From: Psychroserpens sp. Hel_I_66
GTDB lineage: Bacteria; Bacteroidota; Bacteroidia; Flavobacteriales; Flavobacteriaceae
Direction: 5' to 3'
NCBI RefSeq assembly: GCF_000799465.1
Contig: NZ_JUGU01000001.1
Coordinates: 868,001-932,000 of the forward strand
Length of the DNA: 64,000 nt
The notes under the pieces are model-generated. The model made no database searches. It was given only the letters and a program-made list of their open reading frames with translations, and had not been told where the DNA came from. Positions 2 to 63,904 of this stretch are shown here, piece by piece (positions within the stretch are counted from its first letter, which is position 1; each line of letters begins with the position of its first letter). A program made the position numbers and the translations under genes.

Positions 2-652
2 ATTTACGCTCCAAAAGGTTTGAAAGAAGTCATTACGATGCAAATGAAGTTATCAGATTCTTGGACAAATTATCAACTGATATTTCATGAGCTTACTTCC
101 AAAACTTCGGAAATGATCTACGAAGACGATAAAGTAGAAGTGCATACCATCCCTCTAGACCATAGAATTTATACCAATGGATTTCTGTTTAAGGAAAAAT
201 TAGGAGAACGTAAATTGGATATGAACGCAGTTTTAAACGAAGACATTGATGTTGCCTATTACCGAAAGTTAAAACAAGGGGCAGATGTGCCAGATAACAC
301 AGGCAAGATCATAAGAAACGAAACGGTTACTAAAAATCCCAATCCTCCAAAAAGTTATGCGTTTTGTAGTGATACAGCCTATAGTGAATCTATAATACCA
401 ATTATTGAAAATGCTACGGTGTTATATCATGAATCTACATTTCTTGAAAAAAATGAAGTGCTGGCTCTTCCCACAAAGCATTCAACAGCTAAACAAGCTG
501 CCACAATTGCGAAAAAAGCAAATGTAGGCACTTTAATTTTAGGGCATTATTCTACAAGATATGATAGTTTGGCTGAGTTTAAGACTGAAGCAGAAACCAT
601 ATTTACTAATGTGAAGCTTTCAAAAGATGGTAAAAAATTTAATTTTGATTAA
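2..652 (+). CDS. rnz: Ribonuclease Z, C-terminal part (5' end outside window)
   Basis: Zinc-dependent endonuclease of the metallo-beta-lactamase fold that trims tRNA 3' ends in the cytoplasm. The reading frame is open from base 2 (IYAPKGLKEV, a typical RNase Z stretch), so the gene enters from the left edge and its N-terminal HxHxDH half is not visible. What remains shows PLDHRIYTNGF, a central CSDTAY, HESTF, KHSTAKQAA and LGHYSTRY, which are the later metal-site and substrate motifs of RNase Z. The stop at 650-652 overlaps the restored end of the convergent STAS-like gene by about 14 nt. Family call is firm; only the 5' part is missing. Confidence 0.9.
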   Translation: MYAPKGLKEVITMQMKLSDSWTNYQLIFHELTSKTSEMIYEDDKVEVHTIPLDHRIYTNGFLFKEKLGERKLDMNAVLNEDIDVAYYRKLKQGADVPDNTGKIIRNETVTKNPNPPKSYAFCSDTAYSESIIPIIENATVLYHESTFLEKNEVLALPTKHSTAKQAATIAKKANVGTLILGHYSTRYDSLAEFKTEAETIFTNVKLSKDGKKFNFD

Positions 653-1057
653 ACTCATCTAAGTTAGAAATCCAATCTATTGCTTCCTCAAGACTTTGAC
701 AACGCTTTAAGCTTTTTTGAAGAAGTGTTTTTCCATTGAAGAATTCAAATAACTAAAATCTGAATAGGATACGATGGCAGAAGCAACCAAAAAATCATAT
801 TCCTTGTTAAATTCAGTCCACAATTGCGGATCAAAAGAATATGAATTAATGCGATTAGAGATGTATCCAAACTTATGTTCGCTTTTCATTTCTTCGGAAA
901 ATTGGGATATGATTTCCCCAGCTATTTCATGGTCAACATGTATGCCTTCATTTATTTCTGAAACTATAAAATTTTTGGTGATATAGAATTTTCCGAAGGG
1001 AAACTCCATTTTTTTATATTCTAAAAGTTTAGAATAATTACTATTTTCAAATGTCAT
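639..1057 (-). pseudogene. STAS/SpoIIAA-like small protein, frameshifted near the 3' end
   Basis: The intact frame from ATG 1055-1057 codes for 116 residues and stops at 707, just after a run of six A on the coding strand (T run 713-718). Shifting by one base there opens a frame that continues for 24 more residues (begins SLKRCQSLEEAIDWI) and stops at 639-641. That tail has the 'xLEEAIxWI' ending common in flavobacterial STAS-like proteins, and the restored length of about 139 residues fits better than 116. One extra A in the run would restore it. This could be a sequencing error, a real mutation or slippage. Function is unknown; such proteins are predicted cytoplasmic. Divergent from pdxH. 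Confidence 0.6.
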
Positions 1058-1139
1058 TAGTAGATTTTATTGTTTAAATTTAAAGTAATTTTCCCGACCT
1101 TTAAAAGATAAATCAAACAATTCTAAACACTTTTTTATA

Positions 1140-1787
1140 ATGAATACAGACTTAGGGAATTATAGAAAATCATACGAAAAACAAGAACTTTTAGAATCCA
1201 ATGTAAGCGATAACCCTATAGAGCTATTTCAAAAATGGTTTCATGAAGTTGATGAGAATTATGACGTGGGTGAAACAAATGCCATGACCATTAGTACGAT
1301 TGGTTTAGACGGTTTCCCAAAGAGTAGAGTTGTGCTCTTGAAAAAATTTACTCATGAAGGTTTTATATTTTATACAAATTATGAAAGCGAGAAAGGAAGA
1401 GCAATTGCAAATAATCCAAATGTTTGTTTATCTTTTTTTTGGCCTGCAGCAGAACGCCAAATCATAATAAAAGGAGCAGTAGAAAAAATAGCAGAAAATC
1501 TAAGTGATGGTTATTTTGAATCCCGACCTAGAGGAAGTAAGTTGGGCGCTCTTGTATCTCATCAAAGTGATATTATTGAAAATCGAACTGTGTTAGAAAA
1601 CCGTCTCAAAGATCTAGAGCTTAAGTATGAAGGTAAAGATATACCAAGACCAGATTTTTGGGGAGGGTTTATTGTTAAGCCTATAGAAATTGAATTTTGG
1701 CAAGGTCGCCCTAATCGTCTTCACGATAGATTACGCTATCAATTAGATCAAGATTTCAATTGGATTTTAGATCGATTATCTCCATAA
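1140..1787 (+). CDS. pdxH: Pyridoxamine 5'-phosphate oxidase
   Basis: FMN-dependent oxidase that converts pyridoxamine or pyridoxine 5'-phosphate to pyridoxal 5'-phosphate, the last step of vitamin B6 synthesis and salvage, in the cytoplasm. The protein has 215 residues, the usual length. It shows the FMN-binding split-barrel pattern: SRVVLLKKF around residue 62, FYTNYESEKG near 78, LSFFWPAAERQI near 98, ESRPRGSKLGALVSHQS, and the characteristic end with FWQGRPNRLHDR. Start is the ATG at 1140, in a divergent arrangement with the STAS-like gene. Nothing unusual is seen. Confidence 0.96.
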   Translation: MNTDLGNYRKSYEKQELLESNVSDNPIELFQKWFHEVDENYDVGETNAMTISTIGLDGFPKSRVVLLKKFTHEGFIFYTNYESEKGRAIANNPNVCLSFFWPAAERQIIIKGAVEKIAENLSDGYFESRPRGSKLGALVSHQSDIIENRTVLENRLKDLELKYEGKDIPRPDFWGGFIVKPIEIEFWQGRPNRLHDRLRYQLDQDFNWILDRLSP

Positions 1788-2019
1788 CCCATTCAAAAAT
1801 TAAAAACTTCGACCATCTACATATTTTGTAAGATAATTCATAATAAAAAATACACATAAACGAAAAATTATACACTTAAGCATCCTTTTTTCTAAATAGT
1901 GTGTATATTGTCGTCATAATTAGTGATTACATAGATAACCCCAAGTTTGAGTAATCATTTTTATTAACAAAACAATAAAGACCCCAAATCTAAAATTGTT
2001 TACAAATAAAAACCTACTT

Positions 2020-2587: not shown

Positions 2588-2986
2588 TCATTTATTTTGA
2601 TGTATAAAACGTAGTTTAATCTTTTTATCATCTATAAGTTTGTGTACTTCGGAAATATCATAGTGTTTAATATTCTCAACATCTAAATTAGTTTTGTAAA
2701 TCTCAAGTCTAGAATAATAGTTTTGCTTTGTTGCAAACGTGTACAAGTCCATACTATCTTTTTCTTTAGTGTTAACGTATAGCCTTGTCCAGCTTTTATC
2801 TACAATTCCAAATTCTGCAGTATCTATATTTAATATAATGTCTCCAGTTGAAGCATCATAAAAAACTTCTTGATAATCACCATATTGATCTTCTATATCC
2901 ATTAAGTAGAAGCCATAACCAATAAAAACTAAAATAAATAAAGCAACAAATAGAATAGCAGCAACCATCAATAAAATACTTCTCAT
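2588..2986 (-). CDS. Small membrane-anchored protein of unknown function
   Basis: A 132-residue protein that I do not recognise. Residues 1-28 form one hydrophobic helix (LLMVAAILFVALFILVFIGYGFYLM) with a single Arg before it. The rest is a soluble, acidic and aromatic-rich domain (DASTGDIILNI, KSWTRLYVN, DLYTFATKQNYYSRLEIY). This suggests an inner-membrane anchor with a periplasmic domain. It stands alone, convergent with the CAP lipoprotein gene and separated from the surface module upstream by a terminator. ATG start at 2984-2986. Real-gene status rests on length, codon use and the clean N-terminal helix. Confidence 0.65.
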   Translation of the reverse strand: MRSILLMVAAILFVALFILVFIGYGFYLMDIEDQYGDYQEVFYDASTGDIILNIDTAEFGIVDKSWTRLYVNTKEKDSMDLYTFATKQNYYSRLEIYKTNLDVENIKHYDISEVHKLIDDKKIKLRFIHQNK

Positions 2987-3098: not shown

Positions 3099-5024
3099 CT
3101 ATTCTTTAAGTATGTAGAAGTATGAACGTCTATTTAATTGGTGTTCTTCTTCACTACATTTAACGCCATTTGCACATTTATTAAGTAACTGTGTCTCTCC
3201 ATAACCGATAGCGCTTTCAATACGATCTTTGGCTAGACCTCTAGAAAGAATGTATTCCATTGTTGATTTTGCTCTACGGTCTGATAATTTCAAATTATAG
3301 GCATCTCGCCCACGACTATCTGTATGGGATTCTATTTTGATTACCATTTCTGGGTGAGCACGAAGTACATCTACCACATTTTCTAATTCATATTGTGCGT
3401 CTGTTCTAATATTTGATTTATCAAAATCAAAGAAGATAGGGTTAATTACAATTTGGTTGATTCTAACTAAAGGCTCTAAATAGAGATCAGCCTCGGTAAC
3501 TTTTTCGTGTTTGTTATCTGTAGTTACTTTCTTTTGATCGTCTTTAAAATCTTCTTTACTGCCAACAACGGTATATGTCTTATTACAATCTACTTTAAAC
3601 TCATAAGCGCCATCTTCAGCAGTTTCTTTTGTTGAAATTACTTTTCCAACTTCATTGATCAATTTCACGGTTACACCTGGCAGAATTTCATTGTCGTTTG
3701 AATTTCTGGTAATCCCCTTAATTGTTTGCTCACAAAAACTAGCGTCAAAAGCATAAATATCGTCACTACCTTGCCCATCTGGTCTATTAGATGAAAAATA
3801 TCCAGAGTTCTCATTTTTTTCTTCGGAAGCATTTTTAAAATAAGCAAAGTCGTCGTAACCACTATTATATGGTGCACCCAAATTTACAGGCTCTGCAGAC
3901 TCATCTTTTAAAAGATTAGATTTAAAGATATCTAAAAAACCTAAATTTAAGTGACCATCAGACGAGAAGTAAAACGTACTATCTTTCTCAATAAATGGAA
4001 ACATCTCGCGACCTTCAGTATTAATTTTTTCTCCAAGGTTTCTAGGTTGAGAGTAGGTGTTGCTACCTTCAATATCTACAACATAAATATCGGTTTCTCC
4101 TAAACCACCTTCTCGATCTGAAACAAAGTAAAGCTGTTTGTTATCTGGGCTCAATGCTGGATGACCAGTTGAGAATACCTCATCATTGATTGGTAATTCC
4201 ATAATATTGGTCCACTGTTCACCTACTAAAGTCGCTTTATATATTTTGAGGTGTGTTGTGCCTTTCTTGTCGTATTGTATTTTGTTCTTTTTCCCAACAT
4301 TATCTCTTGTGAAATACATCGTATTTCCGTCATTCGTAATTGCTATTGAAGCTTCATGGTACTCGGTATTTAGTTTTTCCGAAGGAATAAAATCAGGAGT
4401 TCCATAAGTCACCGAATCTACTTCTTTATCAACTTTAACTTGATAAATGTCTAAAAACGGTTCTTGGTTCCAACTGTATAATTTTTTCTCATCTGTATTT
4501 CTTGAGGATGCAAAGTACAATTGTCCATTATGGATGTACGATCCAAAATCTGAATATTTTGAATTAAAAGGTAAGCTTACAACCTTAACCACATTGTTCT
4601 TTTCTGTTTCTGCGAGTTCATTGAATTTTGCAATATTCTCTGGATTGTAGTCTTCGGTCCTGGTATCATTATTTTGGATAGCCATAAATTTTTTCATCCA
4701 AGAATCTGCTTCTTTATATTCACCTAAACTTCTTAAAGACTGGATGTACTTATAAATGTACTCTGGATTGATATCCTTTTCATCATAAGCTAAGGCTTTA
4801 CTGTACCAAAATGCTGCTTTTTCAGATTTTGAGTTGTTATAATAGCAATCTCCCAATCGTGTTAAAACATGCAGACTAGTATCGCCTTTTTTGAGAACTT
4901 CCTCATAAAGTTCTGTGGCCTTGATGTACCCGTAGTTGCTAAAAAACTTATCAGCAAGCTTTTCTTGGGCAATCGAAACTGTGCTTATTAACGCAAATAT
5001 TAAGATTAAAAACTTTGATTTCAT
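3099..5024 (-). CDS. OmpA-family protein with TPR, PD40 propeller and Cna-like domain (PorE type)
   Basis: A 641-residue envelope protein. In order: signal peptide ending SIAQ (about 1-19); TPR-like helices (about 25-120: YGYIKATELYEEVL, LGDCYYNNSKSEKAAFWYSKAL); a WD40-like PD40 beta-propeller (about 145-425, repeats such as ALSPDNKQLYFVSDR and YFSSNRPDGQGSDDIYAF); a carboxypeptidase-regulatory/Cna-B-like fold (about 435-515); and a C-terminal OmpA domain (about 525-641) with FFDFDKSNIR, HTDSRGRDAYNLKLSDRRA and the peptidoglycan-binding Asp/Arg. This architecture is that of PorE of the type IX secretion system and its many paralogues beside SprF/PorP genes. It probably ties the neighbouring adhesin machinery to peptidoglycan. 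It is 11 nt downstream of the sprF-like gene, so same operon. Confidence 0.88.
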   Translation of the reverse strand: MKSKFLILIFALISTVSIAQEKLADKFFSNYGYIKATELYEEVLKKGDTSLHVLTRLGDCYYNNSKSEKAAFWYSKALAYDEKDINPEYIYKYIQSLRSLGEYKEADSWMKKFMAIQNNDTRTEDYNPENIAKFNELAETEKNNVVKVVSLPFNSKYSDFGSYIHNGQLYFASSRNTDEKKLYSWNQEPFLDIYQVKVDKEVDSVTYGTPDFIPSEKLNTEYHEASIAITNDGNTMYFTRDNVGKKNKIQYDKKGTTHLKIYKATLVGEQWTNIMELPINDEVFSTGHPALSPDNKQLYFVSDREGGLGETDIYVVDIEGSNTYSQPRNLGEKINTEGREMFPFIEKDSTFYFSSDGHLNLGFLDIFKSNLLKDESAEPVNLGAPYNSGYDDFAYFKNASEEKNENSGYFSSNRPDGQGSDDIYAFDASFCEQTIKGITRNSNDNEILPGVTVKLINEVGKVISTKETAEDGAYEFKVDCNKTYTVVGSKEDFKDDQKKVTTDNKHEKVTEADLYLEPLVRINQIVINPIFFDFDKSNIRTDAQYELENVVDVLRAHPEMVIKIESHTDSRGRDAYNLKLSDRRAKSTMEYILSRGLAKDRIESAIGYGETQLLNKCANGVKCSEEEHQLNRRSYFYILKE

Positions 5025-5965: not shown

Positions 5966-8900
5966 TTATTTTGTTGAGACGTAGATCGGTCCTGTTATTG
6001 GTCTCAGTCCACTATTCTTTATATTTAGTACATAATAATAAGTTCCTGTTGGAACAAAATCTGAATTTCCTACGGAAGCTTTAGATGAAGTACCATTCCA
6101 ATCATTTTGGTAATTGAAGTTCTCATATATTTTAGCTCCCCAACGATTGAATATTTGTAATTCATAAACAAATCCACAATCTTCGGTACCAGTAATTGTA
6201 AAGAACTCATTAACACCATCAAAGTTAGCTGTCACTGCTTTTGAGATCACTAAATCATCTTCTCCACAAGGTAATACAACACAATCATCATTTAACGTAA
6301 TGGTTACCGTTGCTTCACCAGGACAAATCCCTTCATAAGTATAAGTAAACTCATAATCTGTTAATTGATCGTCAGTATAATTCCCATCACTATCTAACAA
6401 AGAAGTAGGATTAAAGAAGCTACCGTCTATTATAGCACCTCCAGAGGTTACAGTCCAAACACCATCTGGATCATAATCTCCAGTTAATAAGCTAAACAAG
6501 TCGAAGTCAAAATCATCGCCAATACACAATTCACCTTCATTGGTTTCTATAGTATTTTCAACACTTACATTAACCGTTTGGGTAAATAAAGATTCGTTAC
6601 CACATTCATCAGATACAAACCAATCTCTTATAATTGTATAATCGGTTGCTGTACCATCAGACGATGACGTTTCGTTATATTCTACAGTGATATTCGTAGA
6701 ACAAGCATCTTCAAATACCAGTTCTGGAACTTCCGGAATTTCACTACAAACAACATCAATAGTTTCTACAAATTCACCAACCAATGTTGGAGCAGTTGAA
6801 TCAATCACGCTAATTATCTGCGTAGCTGTTGTTGTATTTTCACAATCATCTGTTAATGTCCAAGTTCTTGTAATAGTCAAATTATTAGGGCAATCGCCTT
6901 CTGTTACCTCATCTGTGAATGTCGCTTCAAGTTCTTCAGAACAATTATCATCTTCATCTGTCACATCTCCAGTTAAGTTAATATCAGATAGATCTTCATC
7001 ACATTCTAAAGTAACATCTGAAGGTACAGTAAACGTAGGAGCAGTAGTATCTTGAATGGTAATTGTCTGTACTAATGCAGTAGCATTGTCACAATCATCT
7101 GTTACTGTCCAAACTCTTGTAATAACATACTCATTTACACAACTACCATCTGTAATAGTATCAACAAATGTCGCTTCAAGTTCTTCGGAACAATTATCCG
7201 CTTCATCCGTCACATCTCCAGTTAAAGACACATCTGTAATATCTGCATCACATTCTAAAGCGATATCAGCTGGTACAGTAAATGTTGGTGCAGTGGTGTC
7301 TTCTAAAGTAATAGTCTGGATTGCTGTTGTAGTATTTCCACACTCATCGGTCAATGTCCAAGTTCTTATAATTACTGATTCGTTTGCACAGTTACCTTCT
7401 GAGATTTCATCAGTAAATATTGCTTCGATTTCTTCGGAACAGTTATCCGCTTCATCTATTACATCTCCAGTTAAAGACACATCTGTAATATCTGCATCAC
7501 ATTCTAAAGTCATGTCTGCTGGAACAGTAAATGTTGGAGCAGTGGTATCCTGAATTGTGATTGTCTGAACTAAAGTTGTCGTATTATCACAATCATCAGT
7601 TAACGTCCAGTTTCTTGTAATTACAGATTCGTTTGCGCAATCGCCATCAGTAATAGTATCCTCGTAACTTGCTTCCAAATCTGTAGAACAGTTATCAGCT
7701 TCATCGGTTACATTACCAGTTAAGGATGCATCGGTCAAGTCTGCATCACATTCAAGCGTTACATCTGCAGGCACATTAAATGTTGGAGCAGTGGTATCAT
7801 GAATAGTAATGGTTTGTATTTGATTTGTTACATTTCCGCAGTCATCAGTTAACGTCCAAGTTCTTGTAATTACAGATTCGTTTGCGCAATCGCCTTGGGC
7901 AACCGCATCCACAAATGTAGCTTCAAGATTTTCTGAACAGTTATCAGCTTCATTCGTCACGTCTCCAGTTAAGGATACATCAGTCAAGTCTGCATCACAT
8001 TCTAAAGTCACGTCTGCTGGCACAGTAAATGTTGGAGCAGTGGTATCTTGAATAGTAATGGTTTGTATTTGAGTTGTTACATTTCCGCAGTCATCAGTTA
8101 ACGTCCAAGTTCTTGTAATTACAGATTCGTTTGCGCAATCGCCTTGGGCAACCGCATCCACAAATGTAGCTTCAAGATTTTCTGAACAATTATCAGCTTC
8201 ATCCGTCACATCTCCAGTTAATGATACATCAGTCAAGTCTGCATCACATTCTAAAGTCACGTCTGCTGGCATAGTAAATGTTGGAGCAGTGGTATCTTGA
8301 ATAGTAATGGTTTGTATTTGAGTTGTTACATTTCCGCAGTCATCAGTTAACGTCCAAGTTCTTGTAATTACAGATTCGTTTGCGCAATCGCCATCAGCAA
8401 CTGTATCAAGATAACTAGCTTCTAATTCTCCTGAACATAAATCAGTTTCATCAGTGATGTCACCTGTTAAAGTAATATCGGTTGGATCTTGATCACATTC
8501 AATTGTAATATCTGCAGGCACCGTAAATGTTGGAGCTGTCGTATCTTCTATAGTCAAAGTCGCTGTTAAGGTTGCTGAGTTCTCACATTCGTCTGTTATG
8601 GTGTAAACAACGGTTAACGTTCCACTTTGCCCACAAGTCACTACATAATTATTAAAATCAAAATCTGAAGTCACTGTTACAGATATATCATCTGCACAGG
8701 CTTGTAATGCGACAATATTGTTATCGTTCCAATCGCTTGCGAGTGTTGCATTTTCATCACCAACACATTCTATAGTTTCGTCATCAACGTCACAATTAGA
8801 TAAATCTGGAATTGTTTCATCACCAAAAGTTAAAGTGGCAGTAAGAACTGTTGCATTTCCACAGTCGTCAGTAATGGTATAGTTTACAGTTATTGTTCCA

Positions 8901-21315: not shown

Positions 21316-21338
21316 GTCTATTTTTTTCTTCGGAAAGA

Positions 21339-30752: not shown

Positions 30753-30818
30753 ATTTTTTACTTCGGAAATTGGAAAACATCAAAATCTCACAGTAAATTG
30801 CAATGATTAGAATTTTAA

Positions 30819-46886: not shown

Positions 46887-46972
46887 ACTATTATCTCTTC
46901 GGAAATGTAACTGTTAACAGATTTTTAGTAGAGTAGTTGTATTTTGGGAAGTTATTGCTAAAATTCATATTA

Positions 46973-47024: not shown

Positions 47025-48296
47025 TTATCTATTTATCGTCTGAGTCCTATCTGGACCTACAGAAACAATAGTAATAGGAATTTCTAGTTCCTTTTCTAAA
47101 AAGGCGATGTAGTCATTAAGTTCCGAAGGAAATTGAGATACATTTCTCATTTTGGTTAAGTCGTCTTTCCACCCTTTAAACTCGGTATAAATTGGAGTCA
47201 CGTTTTCTTCTTCAATATTAAACGGTAAATGTGTAATTGTTTCTCCTTTGTATTTATAAGCGGTACATACCTTTAAGGTTTTAAACCCTGAAAGCACGTC
47301 TCCTTTCATCATGCTCAATTGCGTGACTCCATTGACTTGGCAAGCATATTTAAGCGCTACGAGATCTAACCATCCGCAACGTCTTGGTCGTCCTGTAACT
47401 GCTCCAAACTCATGACCAATACGAGCCATATTTGCTCCAATCTCGTCAAATAATTCTGTTGGAAATGGCCCAGAACCGACACGAGTTGTGTAAGCCTTAA
47501 AAATTCCGAAGACTTCTCCAATTCTATTTGGTGCAACACCTAAACCTGTACATGCTCCAGAAGCAGTGGTATTTGAGGATGTTACAAACGGATAGGTCCC
47601 AAAGTCAATATCTAACAGAGAACCTTGTGCACCTTCTGCTAAAATAGATTTCCCAGCTTTTAGGGCTTGGTTTAAATATTCTTCGCTATCAATAAACTGT
47701 AATTCTTTTAAACGCTCAACAGCTGCAAAGAATTCGTTTTCCATTTCGTTTAAATCATATTGAATATCTACATTGTAGAACCCAATCATTGCTTCATGTT
47801 TGTTTGCTAAAGCTCTGTATTTTTCTTTCCAGTTTGGTAATTCTAAATCTCCAATACGAATCCCATTACGACCGGTTTTGTCCATATATGTTGGTCCAAT
47901 TCCCTTTAATGTCGATCCAATTTTGGCCTTACCTTTTGAGGTTTCGGAAGCTGCATCTAACAAACGATGGGTTGGTAAAATGACATGCGCTTTTCTAGAA
48001 ATAATCAATTTGGATTTGTAATCTAAGTCAAACTTATCTAAACCATCTAATTCCTGCACAAATACAACGGGATCAATAACCACTCCATTACCAATTACAT
48101 TAATCGAATCGTCATGAAAAATACCTGAGGGTATCGTTCTCAATACATGCTTTATACCGTCAAATTCTAATGTGTGACCAGCATTTGGCCCACCTTGAAA
48201 ACGTGCAATAATGTTGTATTTGGAGGTGAGTACATCAACAATTTTTCCTTTGCCTTCGTCGCCCCATTGTAGTCCTAGTAGTAAATCTACTGCCAT
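47025..48296 (-). CDS. purA: Adenylosuccinate synthase
   Basis: GTP-dependent ligation of aspartate to IMP, first step from IMP to AMP. The 423 residues begin with MAVDLLLGLQWGDEGKGKIVD (GDEGKGK P-loop-like at 12-18), then FQGGPNAGHT (about 34-43), KGIGPTYMDKTGRNGIRIGD, EGAQGSLLDIDFGTYPFVTSSNTT, GVFGIFKAY-like IGEVFGIFKAYTTRVGSGPFPTE, RRCGWLDLVAL and a final VSVGPDRTQTI. All IMP/GTP motifs are present. It starts 9 nt after fur, so probably one transcript. Confidence 0.97.
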   Translation of the reverse strand: MAVDLLLGLQWGDEGKGKIVDVLTSKYNIIARFQGGPNAGHTLEFDGIKHVLRTIPSGIFHDDSINVIGNGVVIDPVVFVQELDGLDKFDLDYKSKLIISRKAHVILPTHRLLDAASETSKGKAKIGSTLKGIGPTYMDKTGRNGIRIGDLELPNWKEKYRALANKHEAMIGFYNVDIQYDLNEMENEFFAAVERLKELQFIDSEEYLNQALKAGKSILAEGAQGSLLDIDFGTYPFVTSSNTTASGACTGLGVAPNRIGEVFGIFKAYTTRVGSGPFPTELFDEIGANMARIGHEFGAVTGRPRRCGWLDLVALKYACQVNGVTQLSMMKGDVLSGFKTLKVCTAYKYKGETITHLPFNIEEENVTPIYTEFKGWKDDLTKMRNVSQFPSELNDYIAFLEKELEIPITIVSVGPDRTQTINR

Positions 48297-48866: not shown

Positions 48867-51071
48867 TTAAACTCTTGTTACTTTATCGATACCGTTAATC
48901 TTTTTGAGATTGTCGATTAGCTTTTTGAGCATTGTGCTATTTGGAACAACGACATTGATTTTTCCCGTAAAAATGCCATCATCAGATTCAAAACTTATAC
49001 TCTTCATATTGACATGCATATTAGAGGATATGACTTGAGTGATGTTATTTACAAGTCCTAAATTGTCTATGCCAGATAATTTTATCTGCGTTGCAAACTC
49101 TTGCTGAGAGGAATCAATCCATTTTGCCTGCATTACTCTATAAGCATAATTAGATTGCATACTCAAAGCGTTAGGACAATTCTTTTTATGAACTTTAATA
49201 CCTTCATTAATTGTTAAAAATCCAAATACAGGATCTCCAGGAATTGGATTGCAACATGTAGATAATTTGTAATCTAGTTTTTCTTCTTCTTTACCAAAAA
49301 CGAGTTGATCATATTTTGCTGTAATTTCATCTTTGTCTATGTCTGGAGCAGTGCTAGGCCTACGAATTTTATTTTTAATATAACTCATAAACATATTACT
49401 ACGTGATGACGCGTAATCTTTTAGCATTGCGTTATCAATAGTACCAATACCAACACGATAAAATAAATCTAAACTGGTTTTAAGTTTGAAATGGGTGACC
49501 ATTTCATTGACCGATTTTTCATCGAGCGAAATTTTAAGCTGCTTCAGCTTGCGTCTTAATATTTCTTTGCCATCTTCTGCAATGTCTTTTTTATCTGCTT
49601 TTAATGCAGACTTTATTTTACTTAAAGCTCTGGCGGTAGTTGCGTAATCAAGCCAATTGCGATTGGGTTTTATGTTTTCCGCAGTTAAAATCTCAACTTG
49701 ATCGCCACTGTTGAGTTCGTGACTTAAAGGTACAAGTCTCCCGTTAACCTTCGCGCCTTTTGTTTTCATACCAACCTCTGTATGAACACTAAATGCAAAA
49801 TCTAAAGGTGTAGCGCCTTTTGGTAAGGATTTCAAATCCCCTTTTGGTGAGAACACAAAGATTTCTTTAGAATATAGATTGAGTTTAAACTGCTCGACAA
49901 AATCGACCGCATTGTTCTCGTTACCTTCTAGTGCTTCCTGTAATTTATTGATCCATGCGTCTAGAGCATCTTCTGCATTTCCTTGTTTGTATTTATAATG
50001 TGCTGCGTAACCCTTTTCTGCAATTTCATTCATGCGCTCACTGCGCACTTGCACTTCTACCCATCTGTTTTTAGGACCCATTACCGTAATATGGAGCGCT
50101 TCATAACCTGTGGATTTTGGTGATGAAATCCAATCTCTAAGTCGTATTGGGTTGGGGACAAAATGATCGGTTACGATAGAGTATATTTTCCAGGCAAGAA
50201 ATTTTTCGTTCGCATAATCAGATTTATAGATGATGCGAACCGCAAACTTATCGTACACTTCATCAAAATCGACCCCTTGCTTTTGCATCTTTTTTCTAAT
50301 GGAAAAAATTGATTTTGGTCGCCCTTTGATTTCGTAATTTAAACCTTCCTTGTCCAGAGAATCAACAATGACCTTTGAGAATGCTTTGATGTATTCATCT
50401 TGTTCCTGTTTGCTTTCTTGCATCTTTTCTAAGATGTCGTTGTAAACTTCGGGTTCGGTATATTTCATACCGAGATCCTCGAGTTCGGTCTTGATGTTGT
50501 ACAAACCTATTCGGTGGGCGAGAGGAGCGTAAATGTATAAGGTTTCCGAAGCAATCTTCTCTTGCTTATCTGGTCGCATAGAGTCCATTGTTTGCATATT
50601 ATGAAGACGGTCTGCGATCTTTATGATGATCACGCGCACGTCATCATTGAGCGTCAATAGCATTTTACGGAAATTCTCTGCCTGAGTTGAAACATCGGTC
50701 TCTTTACTCAATGAGGATATTTTGGTGAGACCATCAACAATGCGAGCTACGGTTTCTCCAAAGAGGCGTTCAATATCACTTTTGGTATAATTGGGATTGT
50801 CCTCAACAACATCGTGGAGTAGAGCAGAGGCAATGCTTGTTGCATCCATACCAATTTCACTTGCCACAATTCGTGCTACAGCAATTGGGTGGAAAATATA
50901 GGCTTCTCCAGATTTACGACGCTGGTCTTTATGGGCATCTAAAGCGACCTCAAACGCATGCCGAATGAGTTTCTTGTCTTCATCTGTAAGTGTCCTGTAA
51001 CTTACCTTTAGAAGATTTTTATAGGCCTTTGCAATATCTGCATTTTCTTTTTCTATGGCTTCCTCTGTCAT
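48867..51071 (-). CDS. Bifunctional (p)ppGpp synthetase/hydrolase (RelA/SpoT)
   Basis: Stringent-response enzyme of 734 residues. HD hydrolase domain: FHPIAVARIVA, HDVVEDNPNY (His-Asp near 86-87) and ADRLHNMQTM, all intact. Synthetase domain: KKMQKQGVDFDEVYDKFAVRIIY (about 250-272), STGYEALHITVMGP, and VEVQVRSERMNEIAEKGYAAHYKYK. Then TGS (VFSPKGDLKSLPKGATPLDFAFSVH), helical region, a Cys-containing CCNPIPGDPVFGFL motif and a C-terminal ACT domain. Both activities look functional, as expected for a single Rsh. It is the first gene of the minus-strand fur-purA group. Confidence 0.95.
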   Translation of the reverse strand: MTEEAIEKENADIAKAYKNLLKVSYRTLTDEDKKLIRHAFEVALDAHKDQRRKSGEAYIFHPIAVARIVASEIGMDATSIASALLHDVVEDNPNYTKSDIERLFGETVARIVDGLTKISSLSKETDVSTQAENFRKMLLTLNDDVRVIIIKIADRLHNMQTMDSMRPDKQEKIASETLYIYAPLAHRIGLYNIKTELEDLGMKYTEPEVYNDILEKMQESKQEQDEYIKAFSKVIVDSLDKEGLNYEIKGRPKSIFSIRKKMQKQGVDFDEVYDKFAVRIIYKSDYANEKFLAWKIYSIVTDHFVPNPIRLRDWISSPKSTGYEALHITVMGPKNRWVEVQVRSERMNEIAEKGYAAHYKYKQGNAEDALDAWINKLQEALEGNENNAVDFVEQFKLNLYSKEIFVFSPKGDLKSLPKGATPLDFAFSVHTEVGMKTKGAKVNGRLVPLSHELNSGDQVEILTAENIKPNRNWLDYATTARALSKIKSALKADKKDIAEDGKEILRRKLKQLKISLDEKSVNEMVTHFKLKTSLDLFYRVGIGTIDNAMLKDYASSRSNMFMSYIKNKIRRPSTAPDIDKDEITAKYDQLVFGKEEEKLDYKLSTCCNPIPGDPVFGFLTINEGIKVHKKNCPNALSMQSNYAYRVMQAKWIDSSQQEFATQIKLSGIDNLGLVNNITQVISSNMHVNMKSISFESDDGIFTGKINVVVPNSTMLKKLIDNLKKINGIDKVTRV

Positions 51072-51384
51072 AGAACTAAAGTAAGCATAAGATATGTATT
51101 GTGCAACGGGTTTTCTGGGTTTTGTATTAGGAAATGAATTTTTGAATTATTTCTTCGGAAATGTGAATGCTTTATTTTTAGGGATTGGATTTTTGGTTTT
51201 CGCTAACGTGTTCGTGTTATGGCTAGTTGCGTTGGTTGGAACTAATTTAGTAAAAGAAAACGAACCAGAGGAAAATTCGGAGAATTTTCCGAGTACACAC
51301 AAAACGAGCAATTAGTTATACACGTTGTTGTGCAACGTTTTTTGTATCTTTACAATCAGGCTTAAATTTATAAAAAAATAAAAT
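51072..51384. other. Accessory region between relA/spoT and the orphan sensor gene
   Basis: No confident gene. An open frame of 73 codons on the plus strand (51094-51315, MYCATGFLGFVLGNEFL) is hydrophobic and has a Glu/Asn-rich tail, but shows no recognisable domain and no promoter. The DNA contains CGCTAACGTG (51201-51210) and GGCTAGTTGCG (51221-51231), sequences of a kind I associate with exchangeable gene cassettes in Bacteroidota, and the inverted repeat at 51322-51338. Its base composition looks richer in G than the neighbours. Confidence 0.4.
51322..51338. repeat. Inverted repeat flanking the orphan sensor gene, left
   Basis: ACGTTG-TTGTG-CAACGT, a 6-bp stem. Its core GTTGTGCAAC (51327-51336) has its exact reverse complement GTTGCACAAC at 52013-52022, so the two bracket the gene at 51385-51984 as terminal inverted repeats of a small unit of about 700 bp. 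Confidence 0.5.
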
Positions 51385-54621: not shown

Positions 54622-55851
54622 TCACATCAAATTTCTAACCCGATCCAGCAACGTAGGATGCGAATAATGCGCCACCACATAAGCAGGATGAGGCGTTAAA
54701 TTACTCAAACTGTTTTTAGATAATTTTTTGAGAGAAGTGACTAAAGGTTCTGCTTTGTAAGTGTTTTTTGCGTAGTCATCTGCTTGGTATTCAAATTTGC
54801 GTGACAATTGATTCATCACTAAACTCGTTACTTCGCTAATTGGTGAATACAACAACCCAAAAGCAATCAATCCCACATGAAAACTTGGGATTTCAACACC
54901 GAGCGCATTGGATAATAACTGATTTGAAATAAACACAGACAATATATAAAACGTCAATCCTGTTAATGCGATAGAAGCTATCAAATTATAGATGATGTGT
55001 TTCTTTTTATAGTGTCCAACCTCGTGAGCGAGAACAGCAACAATCTCTTCTTCGTCTAACTCATTAACCAGCGTATCATAAAGTGTTACTCTTTTTTCAC
55101 TCCCAAACCCAGAAAAGTACGCATTGGCTTTCGTGCTGCGTTTTGATCCATCAATAATGAAAATTTTATCAAGATTAAATCCAACCGATGTTGCATATGC
55201 TGAAATTTTATCACGCAAAGTACCGTCTTCTAAAGGCGTTTGTTTATTAAATAACGGAACAACCAATTTGGAATAAAACATATTCATAAACACGGTAAAA
55301 ACCGTAACAATCGCCCAAGCATAGAGCCAAAACAACTCTTGTGTTTGTTGGTAGAACCAAATGATTAGTGCTAAAATCCCACCACCAATAATAGCCATCA
55401 TCAATAACCCTTTAATCTTGTCTAGGATAAATGTCTTTTTAGTGGTTTTGTTGAACCCAAAACGCTCTTCAATTACAAATGTTCTGTAATAACTAAAAGG
55501 GGTTGAGATGATATCACTTGCAAGCATAATTATTCCGAAGAAAATCAAAGCCACAATTATCGGGTTATCACTATAGCTTCTTGCTATGTTATCTACAAAT
55601 TCAAATCCGTCGAAAACTAAAAATCCTAAAGTGAAAAAAAGAGAAAAGAGAGAACTCCAAATCCCGAACTTGTAATTCGTTTTTTTGTAAGCTTGTGATT
55701 TCTTGTATTCGGTGTCATCGTAAACATCCTTTAATTCATCAGGAACTGGATTGTCGTAATTTTTGGCATTGAGATGATCTAAAACTTTATCAATAACAAA
55801 ACTGATAACGATAATGAAAATGATGATATAAAATAGAGTAGTAGCTGTCAT
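54622..55851 (-). CDS. M48-family metallopeptidase (Ste24/CAAX prenyl protease type)
   Basis: Integral-membrane zinc protease of 409 residues with about seven hydrophobic segments. Zinc motif AHEVGHYKKKH with His 276, Glu 277 and His 280; third ligand Glu in the EYQADDYAKNT block near 360. The N-terminal half carries the Ste24-like NYDNPVPDE, KSQAYKKTNYKFG and YRTFVIEERFGFN motifs. Likely a quality-control or peptide-processing enzyme of the inner membrane. Its last 37 codons recur as a fragment at 52093-52221; the sequence [11 protein letters not shown] is the usual end of this family, so the gene itself is complete. Confidence 0.92.
   Translation of the reverse strand: MTATTLFYIIIFIIVISFVIDKVLDHLNAKNYDNPVPDELKDVYDDTEYKKSQAYKKTNYKFGIWSSLFSLFFTLGFLVFDGFEFVDNIARSYSDNPIIVALIFFGIIMLASDIISTPFSYYRTFVIEERFGFNKTTKKTFILDKIKGLLMMAIIGGGILALIIWFYQQTQELFWLYAWAIVTVFTVFMNMFYSKLVVPLFNKQTPLEDGTLRDKISAYATSVGFNLDKIFIIDGSKRSTKANAYFSGFGSEKRVTLYDTLVNELDEEEIVAVLAHEVGHYKKKHIIYNLIASIALTGLTFYILSVFISNQLLSNALGVEIPSFHVGLIAFGLLYSPISEVTSLVMNQLSRKFEYQADDYAKNTYKAEPLVTSLKKLSKNSLSNLTPHPAYVVAHYSHPTLLDRVRNLM
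54635..54738 (-). repeat. 104-bp direct repeat, copy within the M48 gene
   Basis: Covers nearly the whole last 39 codons of the M48 protease gene; partner of 52118-52221. The lipoprotein gene lies entirely between the two copies. Confidence 0.85.
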
Positions 55852-55967: not shown

Positions 55968-56768
55968 TCACTTAAAATCACGCTGCCTTTTAACCTCAAA
56001 AATTAAAATACCAGCAGCTACCGAAACGTTCATACTATCAATTTCGCCCTGCATTGGGATTTTGATATTTTGTGTTGATGCCTCTCGCCAAGCCTCACTT
56101 AAACCAATAGCTTCTGTGCCAACAACAACAGCTGTAGGTTTTGTAAAATCCTGTTCGTGATAATTTACTGCATCTTGTAAAATGGCACTATAAATACCAA
56201 TGTTTTTATCCTTTAAAAACTGAATGATCTCAGTGGTTTCTCCCATCGCAATTTGCGTTGTGAAAACGCAACCCACACTGGATCTTATAATATTTGAATT
56301 GTACAAATCACCTTTGGGATTGGCAATAATCACCGCATCTACATTTGCAGCATCGGCAGTTCGAAGCAATGCACCGATATTACCAGGTTTTTCTGGTGCT
56401 TCTGCAACTAAGATTAATTGGTTTTCCTTCGGAAATTTTAAATCTTGCAAGTTATGCTGTTTCATTTGAGCAATGGCGATGACACCTTCCGTAGAACTGC
56501 GATGGGCCAATTTTTCAAATACTTCTCTTGAGATTTGGATGTGTTCAGTTTCCGAAGATATAAAGCTTTTTAGTTCTTCATTAGAAACTAAATCTTCATA
56601 GTATAGAATTGTTTGTATTTTATAATTTGCTTTTATGGACAATTGCAATTCGCGAATCCCTTCTATAATAAAAAGACCGGTTTTTTTACGCTCACGGGAT
56701 TTTTCTTTTAAAACTAAGATTTGTTTTATGAGTTTATTTTGTGTGCTCGTAATTTCTTTTTGGTGCAT
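55968..56768 (-). CDS. TrmH/SpoU-family RNA 2'-O-methyltransferase
   Basis: A 266-residue SPOUT methyltransferase that probably 2'-O-methylates rRNA or tRNA. N-terminal substrate-binding domain (SpoU_sub_bind-like: RERKKTGLFIIEGIRELQLSI, ISREVFEKLAHRSSTEGVIAI). C-terminal knot motifs: I AEAPEKPGNIGALLRTADAA (about 130-149), II SSVGCVFTTQIA with VVGTEAIGL, III IPMQGEIDSMNVSVAAGILI. RlmB-like in layout, but the target nucleotide cannot be named. ATG 56766-56768. Confidence 0.9.
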   Translation of the reverse strand: MHQKEITSTQNKLIKQILVLKEKSRERKKTGLFIIEGIRELQLSIKANYKIQTILYYEDLVSNEELKSFISSETEHIQISREVFEKLAHRSSTEGVIAIAQMKQHNLQDLKFPKENQLILVAEAPEKPGNIGALLRTADAANVDAVIIANPKGDLYNSNIIRSSVGCVFTTQIAMGETTEIIQFLKDKNIGIYSAILQDAVNYHEQDFTKPTAVVVGTEAIGLSEAWREASTQNIKIPMQGEIDSMNVSVAAGILIFEVKRQRDFK

Positions 56769-59900: not shown

Positions 59901-60341
59901 AATTTACCAGCAGCTCAAGATGATGAAGAGGGAAGCCAGGGATTTGTATATTTCAGGATCAAACCAAATCCAGGTTACGCCATTGGAGACATCATCCCAA
60001 ATACAGCATCTATTTTCTTTGATTTTAATGCACCTGTAATCACAAATACCTTTACTACAGAATTTGTTGAAGAAAATTTATCGGTCAATGAAGCAGGCTT
60101 TACATCTTTCAATCTCTACCCAAATCCTGCAAAAGATAAAGTAACGATTAGATTAAATACTAATAACTTCGGAAATTTGACCGTTAACATCACTGACCTC
60201 CAAGGAAAATTGATCTTGGAACAGCAAATTTCCGAAGAAAATAATATGGAATTGGATATTGCAGCCTTACAAAGCGGATTATATTTTGTGAAACTGAACA
60301 ACAATAATAAAAGTTTCGTTAAAAAACTGATTATAGAATAG
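56958..60341 (+). CDS. Large secreted surface protein with type A T9SS sorting domain
   Basis: A 1127-residue secreted protein. Signal peptide ends SSFAQ (about 1-20). The first 560 residues hold several Ig-like or PKD-like units that start with a short Cys motif such as ILCDDNNDGFALF, VVCDDNDDGFASF and EICDNDPVFTGLF (about 100-130 residues each). A region with VNNDGVVNTVNSSTGTF follows, then a DUF11/DUF7619-like segment with WDPNDKRESHGP and YTIRFQNLGTFFAETVRIED (about 900-1030), and a C-terminal type A sorting domain (FNLYPNPAKDKVTIRLN ... SGLYFVKLNN, last 70 residues). Exported by the type IX system to the surface. Likely adhesive; function not shown by sequence. Terminator follows. Confidence 0.87.
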   Translation: MKQKILFPLIALLFSMSSFAQFVINEPSDYILCDDNNDGFALFFLNTKDAEILGSMPSNGFEVTYYMSQEDADNQINALSSSFTNTTNPQTVFANVVELSSGNLERTTFDLLVVATPQPNLLDVYEICDGSTLLVDSGLTDPSYSYSWYLDGIILEGEVNPLLEVSQTGNYLLQVFSGEDCTSFTEFEVIVSDFEDIETPSPLVVCDDNDDGFASFDLDSATVDILNGIDNASLIVTFYDTEADAFGQVDPLTSPYNNSVQYNQILYVRISNISGDCFTVLPIELIVQINCFGAQSTSIEICDNDPVFTGLFDLTSQNENIVNGEDVSNYNFSYHLTIGEADNDTNEITDITSYPHTVGVQILYVRVEEIVSGDYEIVQLSLIINEAPVIPEPQEYTICGGDEIVIDAGIFNSNLNFQWSTGETDPEIIVFESGTYSVTITDDATGCSSSVEIIVNQGETANINDPQDLVSCDTNGVFDLTSVIPDVLNGLDPNNYEITFYVNFSDVFNQVNAIASPNAYTAFLIPQTVYIRVGNLNDECFAFGAFDLISENCPIEVVCGEEPINTTYCYELESATQYTYTSSDGSPLQVVFNSGQVEDEWDELTVIDTDGTILYSGYGNSGDLTGLSFASSGDTITVFVDSDDVFACADQNYDPLDYDVTCLSDFGLIRINAFKDTNANSIFDFTEANFANGYFTYEVNNDGVVNTVNSSTGTFSILSEDPADTYDITFNLYEESANCFDITTSSFENVSVTTGNVVTLDFPVVEDNSCEDLGVYLVNYSVPPRPGFQHYNYLILENYGFTTIASGTVEFTVDPLLIFDNTFGVNSSYTINTTSNGFTVDFVNLEPGEVANIGITLTCPSSVELDDIVTNTATYLTDENDLVTSNNYSTLSEVVVGSWDPNDKRESHGPEVDYEAFSTSDEWLYYTIRFQNLGTFFAETVRIEDALDSQLDETTFQMLRSSHDNVVTLTDRDLEWSFENINLPAAQDDEEGSQGFVYFRIKPNPGYAIGDIIPNTASIFFDFNAPVITNTFTTEFVEENLSVNEAGFTSFNLYPNPAKDKVTIRLNTNNFGNLTVNITDLQGKLILEQQISEENNMELDIAALQSGLYFVKLNNNNKSFVKKLIIE

Positions 60342-61901: not shown

Positions 61902-61935
61902 TTAAAATAGGAGGTCAAACTAAAAAAAATAGTTT

Positions 61936-62019: not shown

Positions 62020-62781
62020 TTGAAAGTTACTTTTTTGGGTACTGGAACATCACAAGGAATTCCCGTAATTGGGAGCGATCATCCTGTATGCCTAAGCAAA
62101 AATCCAAAAGATAAACGACTAAGAGTTTCGGTTTTGATAGAATGGGAGGATTATGTGTACGTTATTGATTGTGGTCCAGATTTTAGACAACAAATGCTGC
62201 GCACCAACTGTCACAAAATTGATGGCATCGTTTTTACGCACGAACATGCAGATCATACAGCTGGCTTGGATGATATCCGTCCGTTTTATTTCCGTCAAGG
62301 TGACATTCCATTTTACGCACACAAACGTGTTTTGGGAGAACTCGCAAAACGGTTTAATTACATTTTTACTTCGGAAATTAAATATCCAGGCGTGCCAGGC
62401 GTCATCAAGCATGAAATAAAAAACGAACCTTTTCTCCTCGGAAATTTGCCAGTCATGCCAATTAATGGCTATCACCATAAACTTCAGGTTTTTGGGTTTA
62501 GATTTGGAGATTTCGCATATCTCACAGATATGAAAACCGTTGCAGATAAAGAAATAGAAAAATTAAAAGGAGTAAAGGTTTTGGTTGTAAACGCGTTACG
62601 TGAAAAAGAACATATATCACATTTTAACCTCGAGGAAGCCTTACAATTTATAAATAAAGTAAAACCCAAAACCGCATATTTAACACATATAAGCCATTAT
62701 CTTGGCTTTCATGATGATGTGCAAAAAACTTTGCCAGAAAACGTTTATTTAGCTTACGACAACTTACAAATAGAAATATAG
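62020..62781 (+). CDS. MBL-fold metallohydrolase (PhnP-like phosphodiesterase)
   Basis: A 253-residue metallo-beta-lactamase-fold hydrolase. TTG 62020 is the first possible start, as an in-frame stop (62014-62016) is two codons upstream and the family begins with KVTFLGTGTSQGIP. Metal motif THEHADHTAGLDDIRPF (HxHxDH at about 74-79), DCGPDFRQQM near 52, and a final HISHYLGFHDD with further ligands. PhnP-type enzymes cleave cyclic ribose phosphates, but this set of Bacteroidota proteins is not biochemically defined to my knowledge. The next gene follows after 3 bp. Confidence 0.9.
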   Translation: MKVTFLGTGTSQGIPVIGSDHPVCLSKNPKDKRLRVSVLIEWEDYVYVIDCGPDFRQQMLRTNCHKIDGIVFTHEHADHTAGLDDIRPFYFRQGDIPFYAHKRVLGELAKRFNYIFTSEIKYPGVPGVIKHEIKNEPFLLGNLPVMPINGYHHKLQVFGFRFGDFAYLTDMKTVADKEIEKLKGVKVLVVNALREKEHISHFNLEEALQFINKVKPKTAYLTHISHYLGFHDDVQKTLPENVYLAYDNLQIEI

Positions 62782-62784
62782 ATT

Positions 62785-63288
62785 ATGAAGAGTAGAATTT
62801 TTATGTACCTGTTTATTTTCACGCTTTTGCTCGTGATTTTTCAATTCGTTAATTCAAAAAGCATCATTGAAAGTTATGATGAAAAGTTAACGAATTATAT
62901 GAAAGTAAATACCGAATTAAAAGATTCTATCCAGCAAATTGAGGATCAAAAAAGCACCGATTTATATACCTTTAGATTTGACACCAATGACGATGCCATG
63001 ACGTATTGGGAGAATCAAGGCTATCGCATTTCTGAGTTTGTGCCTTTTATAAAAGATGAACTCATGAGCTTAAATGTTTACGATACAGAAGATCATCCTT
63101 TAGTGCCTTACGCTTCAATGACCGAAAATAAGATGTTAATAGATCAAATACGAATGCTCAATCACAAATGGATCATCGCCAGTTTTACAGATGGCACCTA
63201 TTGGGGCGAAATGATACTAAGCTACGAGATTGAAGATAAAAAGAGTTTGAAATTTAAGGTGCTGGAGTCTATTTTGTATCAGCCTTAA
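62785..63288 (+). CDS. Small membrane-anchored protein of unknown function
   Basis: A 167-residue protein with one N-terminal helix (MYLFIFTLLLVIFQFVN, about 7-23), a short coiled coil (SYDEKLTNYMKVNTELKDSIQQIEDQ, about 30-55) and a soluble domain with FRFDTNDDAMTYWENQGYRI, VYDTEDHPLVPYAS and HKWIIASFTDGTYWGEMILSYE. Conserved-looking, but not known to me. It is 3 nt after the MBL hydrolase gene, so it is co-translated with it. The final part resembles a hydrolase-associated or lipocalin-like fold only vaguely; I assign no function. Confidence 0.72.
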   Translation: MKSRIFMYLFIFTLLLVIFQFVNSKSIIESYDEKLTNYMKVNTELKDSIQQIEDQKSTDLYTFRFDTNDDAMTYWENQGYRISEFVPFIKDELMSLNVYDTEDHPLVPYASMTENKMLIDQIRMLNHKWIIASFTDGTYWGEMILSYEIEDKKSLKFKVLESILYQP

Positions 63289-63370
63289 ATCATATTAAAA
63301 GGTCTATCTAAGTATTCTAAACTTTTTAAAAAAAATAAGATATCAATTTAAGATTAGAAAAATAAAAGGC

Positions 63371-63904
63371 TCATCTATTTTTCAACCATGTCTCACGAGT
63401 AATACTAAACACGTTAAATTCATCAATTTGATTTTCTAAGGACATTCCGTTTTTTATGGCGACGATTTCCGAAGCAATATTATCTACATGCATCATTGAT
63501 ATAACGTTCTCCGCCAGGTTATGTTCAAAACAAAAATCTCTACATTTTTGTGCAGCTTCTTGCGCGTAACCTTTTCCCCAATAGTTTGGCAAAATTGAAT
63601 AACCAACTTCTAAACGCTCTTCGTCTTCAACGGTTTGAATTAGCAATCCGCTTTGTCCAATAAATGCTCCTGTTTGTTTATCTATGAGTGCATTCATACC
63701 ACCAAGATTATTCTCGTATCTATGCCAAACTTTGTTGAACCAAAAGTCACATTGTTCGGTTTGTGATAAACCGGTTGGCATTCCTAGAAATTTATCCACG
63801 TTTTTTTCTGAAAAAAGAGGTAACCATAAAATGTAGTCTTCTTTGGTGACTAATCTAAATTGCAAACGTTTTGTTTCTTGATCTGTAAGGAGGTATTTGT
63901 TCAT
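63371..63904 (-). CDS. GNAT-family N-acetyltransferase (RimJ/RimL type)
   Basis: A 177-residue acetyl-CoA-dependent acetyltransferase. Begins TKRLQFRLVTKEDYILWLPLF, with FIGQSGLLIQTVEDEERLEVGYSILPNYWGKGYAQEAAQKCRDFCFEH (about 75-125) containing the acetyl-CoA-binding GKGYAQEA loop, and NIASEIVAIKNGMSLE at the end. This is the ribosomal-protein or small-molecule acetyltransferase type; substrate is unknown. ATG 63902-63904. Confidence 0.88.
   Translation of the reverse strand: MNKYLLTDQETKRLQFRLVTKEDYILWLPLFSEKNVDKFLGMPTGLSQTEQCDFWFNKVWHRYENNLGGMNALIDKQTGAFIGQSGLLIQTVEDEERLEVGYSILPNYWGKGYAQEAAQKCRDFCFEHNLAENVISMMHVDNIASEIVAIKNGMSLENQIDEFNVFSITRETWLKNR

Follow-up and report, generated by a model that had tools for sequence, protein, structure and literature searches.

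An octamer in large excess on the chromosome of Psychroserpens sp. Hel_I_66, and its possible role as an uptake sequence

To our knowledge, uptake words have so far been described from two proteobacterial families, both of which use type IV pili. For Haemophilus, one account gives a mean spacing of ~1,000 bp between uptake signal sequences (USS) and describes AT-tracts beside them (PMC7811141). Another reports that uptake is independent of site orientation, that orientation is unbiased round the chromosome, and that 65% of the sites of H. influenzae are within reading frames, with non-coding DNA above expectation; it also cites earlier work in which the spacing was significantly even, and itself finds less evenness than a role in compaction needs (PMC1939737). 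For the pilus-free transformation of Riemerella, the adjacent genes RS04915 and RS04920 are both reported as essential (PMC8459023), and R. columbina reportedly favours its own DNA (PMC7965970). Here, the octamer CTTCGGAA (complement TTCCGAAG) is described from a 64 kb stretch of Psychroserpens sp. Hel_I_66, called the window, which occupies positions 868001-932000 of the chromosome (G000; 3,842,990 bases, one contig). Some Flavobacteriaceae maintain it at the level of the DNA as a signal word spread over the whole genome, and it looks like a signal read by a DNA-handling machine. The best explanation, with a probability of about 0.42, would be an uptake-type sequence of a pilus-free flavobacterial transformation system.

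The window (34.1% G+C) contains 36 exact copies between positions 105 and 63474, 20 as CTTCGGAA and 16 as TTCCGAAG. These counts are identical to those of an earlier description made from the letters of the window alone (the sequence-only reading), and 100 dinucleotide-shuffled windows give a mean of 1.26 copies (standard deviation 1.22, maximum 5), close to the ~1.3 expected there. The spread claimed for the window holds for the whole chromosome, which has 2174 copies (1085 and 1089 on the two strands, one per 1.77 kb) against 118 of the word read backwards, used as a control. The frequency is ~20 times chance in genic and intergenic DNA, and the excess is larger than the earlier description had it. 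In a sample of 61 stretches of this genome, window included (1.264 Mb, 10 kb masked; hereafter the own sample), CTTCGGAA is the most over-represented of all octamers, with 700 copies vs 34.9 under an order-3 Markov model, an expectation that is itself inflated by the word's own copies. The same octamer ranks first in samples from three relatives: 380 vs 42.7 in G279 (600 kb), 173 vs 28.5 in G101 (420 kb) and 67 vs 10.3 in G012 (127 kb).

To locate the level at which the word is maintained, genes were called mechanically as the longest non-overlapping open reading frames (ORFs) of at least 100 amino acids. Each of the six frames exceeds synonymous-codon shuffles, 12.7- to 36-fold (sense frames 22 vs 0.8, 155 vs 5.8 and 140 vs 4.5; antisense frames 8 vs 0.4, 64 vs 1.8 and 200 vs 15.8), and a repeat run on fewer shuffles gives 8- to 37-fold. 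All six are likewise raised in G279 (8.5- to 68-fold) and G101 (3.6- to 11-fold), while in the pool of named relatives with few copies some frames are raised, not all. Density in the own sample is 0.54 per kb in coding and 0.65 per kb in intergenic DNA, and copies in genes are sense and antisense in a ratio of 317:272. The strong excess on both strands, independent of frame, is as in uptake sequences. The frame independence asserted by the sequence-only reading is therefore upheld, and with the chromosome-wide spread this supports the selection or drive at the DNA level that it proposed. Neither of the two outcomes that it named as refuting, a Markov count near expectation and a full explanation by one codon pair in one frame, is seen. 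An origin in codon usage, in codon pairs or in RNA structure, such as the cUNCGg tetraloop spelled by CTNCGG, which belongs to the UNCG class, is highly improbable. Many copies do lie in Ser-Glu contexts, and the weaker excess of CTTCAGAA and TTTCAGAA looks largely codon-bound in the own genome, but the synonymous shuffles in the own genome, G279 and G101 rule out a codon-pair or protein cause, and intergenic density is no lower than coding. A tetraloop would need the sense strand; it is ruled out by the strand balance and by the required 3' AA, which would have no pairing role.

The one-letter neighbours of the word that are strongly raised in the own sample all differ at position 3 (CTGCGGAA 192, CTACGGAA 159 and CTCCGGAA 29 copies, Markov expectations 10-18), so that this position is degenerate with the preference T>G>A>>C. 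The consensus TTCCGNAG put forward from the window, where N is the sixth letter, is borne out, with its fourth variant TTCCGGAG just weakly raised (29 vs 10.2). The T, G and A variants pooled number 1051 in the 1.264 Mb sample, or one per 1.2 kb. In the window itself, TTCCGTAG has 10 copies, not the 8 first counted. The recurrence of TTCCGCAG stands in part: there are 25 copies in the window, but 16 of these sit in one repetitive adhesin gene (5966-16720) and inflate the local excess. The variant is still in excess outside the window (167 copies in 1.2 Mb; 587 in the genome vs 49 of its control), and therefore TTCCGNAG holds. Read as CTGCGGAA, the 16 copies in the adhesin gene are found at 7834-14686 on a single strand.

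Other words are raised for other reasons or to no greater degree than in relatives. CTTCCGAA (141 vs 20.5, Markov model, own sample) owes most of its excess to the overlap of its complement TTCGGAAG with CTTCGGAA, and 127 of its 141 copies lie in CTTCGGAAG. CTTCGGTA (64 vs 17.3), CTTCGGGA (33 vs 6.9), CTTCGGCA (24 vs 10.5), CTTCGTAA (69 vs 36.3) and CTTCAGAA (105 vs 61.6) are also above the model in the own sample, but barely or not above the named relatives on the same scale (63.7, 27.3, 76.4, 101.9 and 181, respectively). Some near misses are depleted relative to the same named relatives (TTTCGGAA 34 vs 105, CTTCGGCA 24 vs 76, CTTCGGAT 5 vs 23), a pool which in these neighbour-word comparisons included L156 and L107, both Psychroserpens; L156 was dropped and L107 kept for the flank and later codon-shuffle analyses. 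Two further groups of words stand apart. Words with ACGGC are nearly gone from the own sample compared with the named relatives (AACGGCAA 3 vs 74.6, AAAACGGC 1 vs 65.5, GCCGTAAA 1 vs 54.6), possibly as a restriction target or a word lost from the lineage. TTCAGAA-type octamers are the second over-represented group in G279 and G101 (TTCAGAAA 308 vs 85.3 in G279); their excess is in several frames in G279, and mainly in a few coding frames in the own genome and the low relatives.

The conserved unit extends beyond the octamer. T is favoured 5' of the core, at 60-74% at positions -1 to -3 and more weakly out to -12, and the ninth letter is A in 62% of sites. G279 and G101 have the 5' T tract too, and G012 has it in weaker form. 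With the T-rich tract, CTNCGGAA and the A conserved, the unit is ~20 bp long. Base skew around the sites is clear only within ~35 bp, and outside the core there are just the T-tract, the one A and faint skews. Thousands of chromosome-wide copies might suggest a dispersed repeat or mobile element with the word at its end. This is hardly credible, as little is conserved outside the core and no more than 16 of 698 sites have flanks in common with a second site (at most 12 differences in 40), which rules out a dispersed repeat.

The nearest named relatives by RelA/SpoT protein (94-95% identity) are Psychroserpens and Arcticiflavibacter, and site conservation was compared across 22 loci. In the syntenic region of the four nearest (L090-L093), 6/13, 7/14, 5/10 and 7/13 of the own sites are exact, ~5 times the 9-10% found for control octamers, which have four G/C and contain CG. 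In 11 other Psychroserpens-group loci 0 to 7 of 9-14 sites are exact (controls 3-10%), and in seven outer loci, which include L107, also Psychroserpens, 0 to 2 of 9-14 (controls 3-6%). Thus, the conservation excess fades with distance. Within the chromosome a few of the 61 sampled stretches are poor in the word, with zero copies at 1728001 and 2624001, one at 2880001 and three in each of three others. In the first three of these, 20 kb each (L035, L049, L053), 10 of 37 ORFs were scanned, and they include genes for type I restriction, GmrSD, type ISP and primase proteins. These stretches are read as acquired DNA, in which the word is scarce.

Comparison with related genera, as the sequence-only reading had advised, gives a patchy picture. 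With the backwards word as a rough yardstick, the median ratio in 299 family genomes is 0.70; 28 genomes, from 19 of 236 genera, have a ratio of 3 or more, and 11 have one of 5 or more. Among 48 named genomes searched, copies range over 278-1520 in Psychroserpens, 96-209 in Gelidibacter and 57-271 in Winogradskyella. In 246 genomes of the same order outside the family, the maximum is 564 copies (G579, control 275), and the top ratio among those with more than 100 copies is 3.5 (G610, 275 vs 79). The G variant is raised alongside the T variant in many enriched genomes, with T:G preferences of 2678:128 (21:1) in G279, 2174:587 in the own genome, 1255:664 in G007 and 526:416 (1.3:1) in G100. In an AddB tree of the 30 genomes whose AddB loci were returned by the PDDEXK_1 search, enrichment changes state at least four times on well-supported branches and two genera are split; therefore gain or loss was repeated. 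In one genus, g11, the word is scarce (G010 7 vs control 54, G242 5 vs control 60).

The most unexpected property of the word is its direction-dependent spacing. Cumulative GC skew has an origin-like minimum at ~2.9 Mb and a terminus-like maximum at ~0.86 Mb; dnaA is at 1520668 (1.52 Mb; contig C1 of G000), far from the minimum. Split by skew into two halves, the 1.264 Mb sample shows no replichore bias of orientation (162/156 and 182/200), which answers the question of strand distribution relative to origin and terminus raised by the sequence-only reading, and no leading-strand polarity like that of Chi or of FtsK orienting polar sequences (KOPS) is seen. The overall gap distribution is Poisson-like. 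Adjacent own sites face in opposite directions in 394 of 641 cases (335 +- 12 when shuffled), and G101 agrees (98 of 153 vs 80.9 +- 5.6); alternation is not above shuffling in G279 (184 of 350 vs 182.0 +- 9.0) or G012 (36 of 62 vs 32.5 +- 3.6). Same- and opposite-direction pairs within 1250 bp number 160:289 in the own sample, 147:206 in G279, 41:73 in G101 and 25:52 in G012. In the own sample this bias is mainly a deficit of same-direction pairs (160 vs 260 expected from density), and in the relatives mainly an excess of opposite pairs, with same-direction pairs at 147 vs 156 (G279), 41 vs 50 (G101) and 25 vs 33 (G012).

Under a null model that keeps positions within genes, own same-orientation pairs within 1 kb number 124 vs 187 +- 13 (lowest of 200 draws 156), and convergent pairs are not depleted at that range. 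Within 400 bp, convergent pairs exceed divergent ones by 79:22 in the own sample and by 68:24, 29:7 and 9:4 in the three relatives (the last not significant). The same null gives 38 +- 6 convergent and 37 +- 6 divergent own pairs, which rules out gene position as the cause of the convergent excess; base skew is likewise ruled out as a cause of direction, its clear extent being limited to the immediate surroundings of the sites. The spacing therefore differs from the orientation-independent spacing of uptake sequences, with same-direction pairs depleted and convergent pairs in excess. From the same-direction repulsion within ~1 kb together with the convergent excess, reading may be polar, and the dependence of spacing on direction suggests a machine that works from one side of the site.

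This spacing speaks for a Chi-like function, in which the octamer would switch AddAB from degradation to recombination, in one orientation, as the enzyme comes from a DNA end. The repulsion between same-orientation copies could then arise because each orientation needs its own regular supply, and the depletion of same-orientation but not convergent pairs within 1 kb is closer to selection by an enzyme translocating from a DNA end, with which it is compatible as a matter of spacing rather than activity. Chi can carry one degenerate letter, and CTTCGGAA is a non-palindromic octamer with one such letter whose sites are conserved in place. Gene content was surveyed in 29 high and 32 low genomes handpicked from the 299 (for PilB, RecC, AddAB, DUF5689 and ComEC), the high set including G077, G256 and G266 (ratios 1.9-2.5) and omitting G259 and G287 (at least 3). 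RecC is found in 0 of the 61. A PDDEXK_1 match in an AddB-sized frame is found in 60, and a second match, mostly AddA-sized, in 53, G000 included, the names AddB and AddA being inferred from domain and size.

Several observations make a Chi-like function unlikely nonetheless. A leading-strand preference is typical of Chi, and CTTCGGAA has none. The AddB-like gene is equally common where the word is not enriched (32/32 low genomes; a single PDDEXK_1 match only is seen in 6/32 low and 2/29 high), and the pools of five low groups (3 to 22 loci) have no non-repetitive octamer of comparable excess, the strongest being the triplet-repeat CAGCAGCA (84 vs 12, Lacinutrix/Olleya/Bizionia). The T-rich tract lies on one side of the word, and we know of no one-sided T-rich tract from Chi. 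Chi-like action alone also leaves unexplained the excess of convergent over divergent pairs and the shortage of divergent pairs at distances up to 400 bp (22 vs 37 +- 6), and same-direction pairs in G279, G101 and G012 are just mildly below expectation. A sequence search for a solved relative on which to map the Chi pocket of AddB found none.

The convergent excess within 400 bp could also reflect two bound proteins meeting, as in a HIP1-like iterated word or a binding or methylation site. Here an intracellular protein (an orphan methyltransferase, or a nucleoid or chromosome-organising protein) would bind or modify the word, with selection for structure or marking. The cyanobacterial highly iterated palindrome HIP1 is described as frequent in many genomes, with exceptions (PMC4390886). 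CTTCGGAA is likewise a greatly over-represented octamer, within genes and outside them, and patchy among related genera; it is not, however, its own reverse complement, whereas HIP1 is palindromic. Restriction-modification sites tend toward avoidance rather than enrichment, which speaks against the methylation version. For the chromosome-organising version, there are 2174 sites with no terminus or origin bias, and we know of no chromosome-segregation motif that matches such a pattern. Overall, this explanation is improbable.

Of the candidates named by the sequence-only reading (an uptake-like sequence, a Chi-like site, a methylation site and a binding site of a chromosomal protein), the uptake type fits most of the features; the direction-dependent spacing keeps a Chi-like function alive. 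The density, the presence on both strands, in genes and in gaps, the asymmetric AT flank, the dialects, the conservation and the scarcity in islands together make the profile of an uptake sequence. In the proposed mechanism, CTTCGGAA would be a self-tag for preferential uptake by a pilus-independent transformation system of the Riemerella type. The parts of this system are an outer-membrane protein of carboxypeptidase-regulatory-like type paired with a DUF5689 protein, followed by an HHH protein, ComF, ComEC and DprA. Copies would accumulate because word-bearing fragments are taken up and recombined more often, and such molecular drive, an idea put forward for the uptake sequences of Haemophilus and Neisseria, would fill the genome with them. 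The own genome has ComEC (E 7.1e-60), which does not discriminate high from low genomes, and a DUF5689 protein with a lipoprotein-like start (by eye), whose gene lies 56 bp behind that of a 950-aa protein carrying a carboxypeptidase-regulatory-like domain. This pair shares its domain order with Riemerella RS04915/RS04920. In Pfam the 950-aa frame matches the carboxypeptidase-regulatory-like domain and no TonB-receptor family, and the 146-aa tail of the gene before DUF5689 has no match. A contrast within one genus is suggestive: G030, rated 100% complete, has no ComEC or DUF5689 match and no enrichment (91 vs 209), and its congener G256 has both, with 516 vs 219.

Several results weigh against the uptake link. 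ComEC and DUF5689 are each found in 28/29 high and 31/32 low genomes (the DUF5689 match of G058 is weak); thus, their presence permits enrichment but does not predict or explain it. There is no ComEC match in 33 of 299 family genomes (13 of the 33 recognised by eliminating the listed genomes). The 11 among the 33 with a completeness of 90% or more all have ratios <0.75, and two incomplete ones misfit (G202, 68%, ratio 7.2; G149, 87%, ratio 2.0). Because enrichment is so rare, the absence of ComEC is no test of the link. DUF5689 divergence does not track enrichment among 20 genomes (partial Mantel -0.14, permutation p 0.93), and this protein was therefore rejected as a variable reader. The own genome has no strong PilB/GspE ATPase match, only a weak, partial-profile match to PF00437 (E 4.8e-4) below the cut-off, and strong matches are unassociated with the word (8/29 high vs 7/32 low), so that a link to type IV pili was rejected. 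Lastly, direction-dependent spacing is not predicted by a plain uptake sequence, given that uptake in Haemophilus is orientation-independent. A wider proposal, which is less likely than not, is a sequence-specific DNA self-recognition particular to Bacteroidota, with a pilus-free uptake machine around the outer-membrane carboxypeptidase-regulatory-like/DUF5689 pair, polar reading of the T-tract and CTNCGGAA, and third-letter dialects; in several genera it would have filled sites by the thousand, spaced according to direction.

Within the window, exact copies on the forward strand are at 105..112, 892..899, 2647..2654, 3821..3828, 7183..7190, 7432..7439, 21328..21335, 23073..23080, 28135..28142, 30761..30768, 33050..33057, 34805..34812, 39210..39217, 40539..40546, 44794..44801, 46897..46904, 51153..51160, 56427..56434, 60167..60174 and 62369..62376. 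Those on the reverse strand are at 991..998, 4377..4384, 15059..15066, 19826..19833, 21378..21385, 24560..24567, 29626..29633, 39651..39658, 44293..44300, 47121..47128, 47504..47511, 50544..50551, 55533..55540, 56550..56557, 60230..60237 and 63467..63474. Convergent pairs are formed by 892 with 991, 21328 with 21378, 46897 with 47121, 56427 with 56550 and 60167 with 60230. The copies at 30761 and 46897, given as intergenic from the start, are both between ORFs, as are 21328 and 51153. The copies at 7183 and 7432 lie in the repetitive adhesin gene and have similar flanks. The product of this gene (5966-16720, reverse strand) is 3584 aa long and has HYR-like domains and a CHU_C signal for type IX secretion. 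The gene carries tandem repeats of 249, 291 and 237/474 bp, with 99% matches in the 474-bp array, and adjoins genes for PorP/SprF (5036-5953) and OmpA/PD40 (3099-5024) proteins.

The sequence-only reading knew of no such signal in Flavobacteriaceae, and none was found described in the literature searched. Searches of open-licence PMC full text gave no paper with CTTCGGAA or TTCCGAAG, although an earlier description elsewhere is possible, and no title or abstract there on Chi in Bacteroidetes or Flavobacterium names CTTCGGAA. In the same literature no uptake signal word was found for Bacteroidetes or Flavobacteriaceae, just a paper that by title and abstract concerns type VI secretion, and the raw most-frequent k-mers of R. 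columbina, with AT-rich words among those tabulated (PMC7965970). If CTTCGGAA is an uptake word, its equal strength in another phylum, where transformation can proceed without pili, would show that such words evolve alongside unrelated machines, and it would help directly to trace which Flavobacteriaceae exchange DNA with one another. As a Chi site, it would be the first strong candidate that we know of in the family, and unusual in having no leading-strand bias. In both cases its direction-dependent spacing and convergent excess place new constraints on how such words act.

Among known systems, CTTCGGAA resembles the USS of Pasteurellaceae (AAGTGCGGT) and the DNA uptake sequences (DUS) of Neisseriaceae in being short, non-palindromic and present about once per 1-2 kb on both strands, with no chromosome-level orientation bias, in coding and non-coding DNA, with an AT-rich flank and with letter dialects between taxa. 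It differs from them in that its genome has no strong type IV pilus ATPase match, its spacing depends on direction, its convergent pairs are 50-400 bp apart rather than overlapping hairpin pairs, and its phylum has no described uptake sequence in the literature searched. Like the Chi of RecBCD/AddAB, it is a non-palindromic octamer whose direction seems to matter, in a genome with AddAB-like genes; unlike Chi, it has a T-rich 5' tract and no leading-strand bias, and many AddB-bearing relatives are unenriched. Cyanobacterial HIP1 (GCGATCGC) is also an octamer strongly in excess with exceptions among related genomes, but is palindromic and tied to methyltransferases, whereas CTTCGGAA is non-palindromic with a degenerate letter. 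The pilus-independent transformation of Riemerella (ComEC, DprA, ComF, DUF5689, carboxypeptidase-regulatory-like, HHH and DUF1343 proteins) differs in that no sequence-specific uptake word was found described there; the own genome shares with it ComEC and the adjacent pair.

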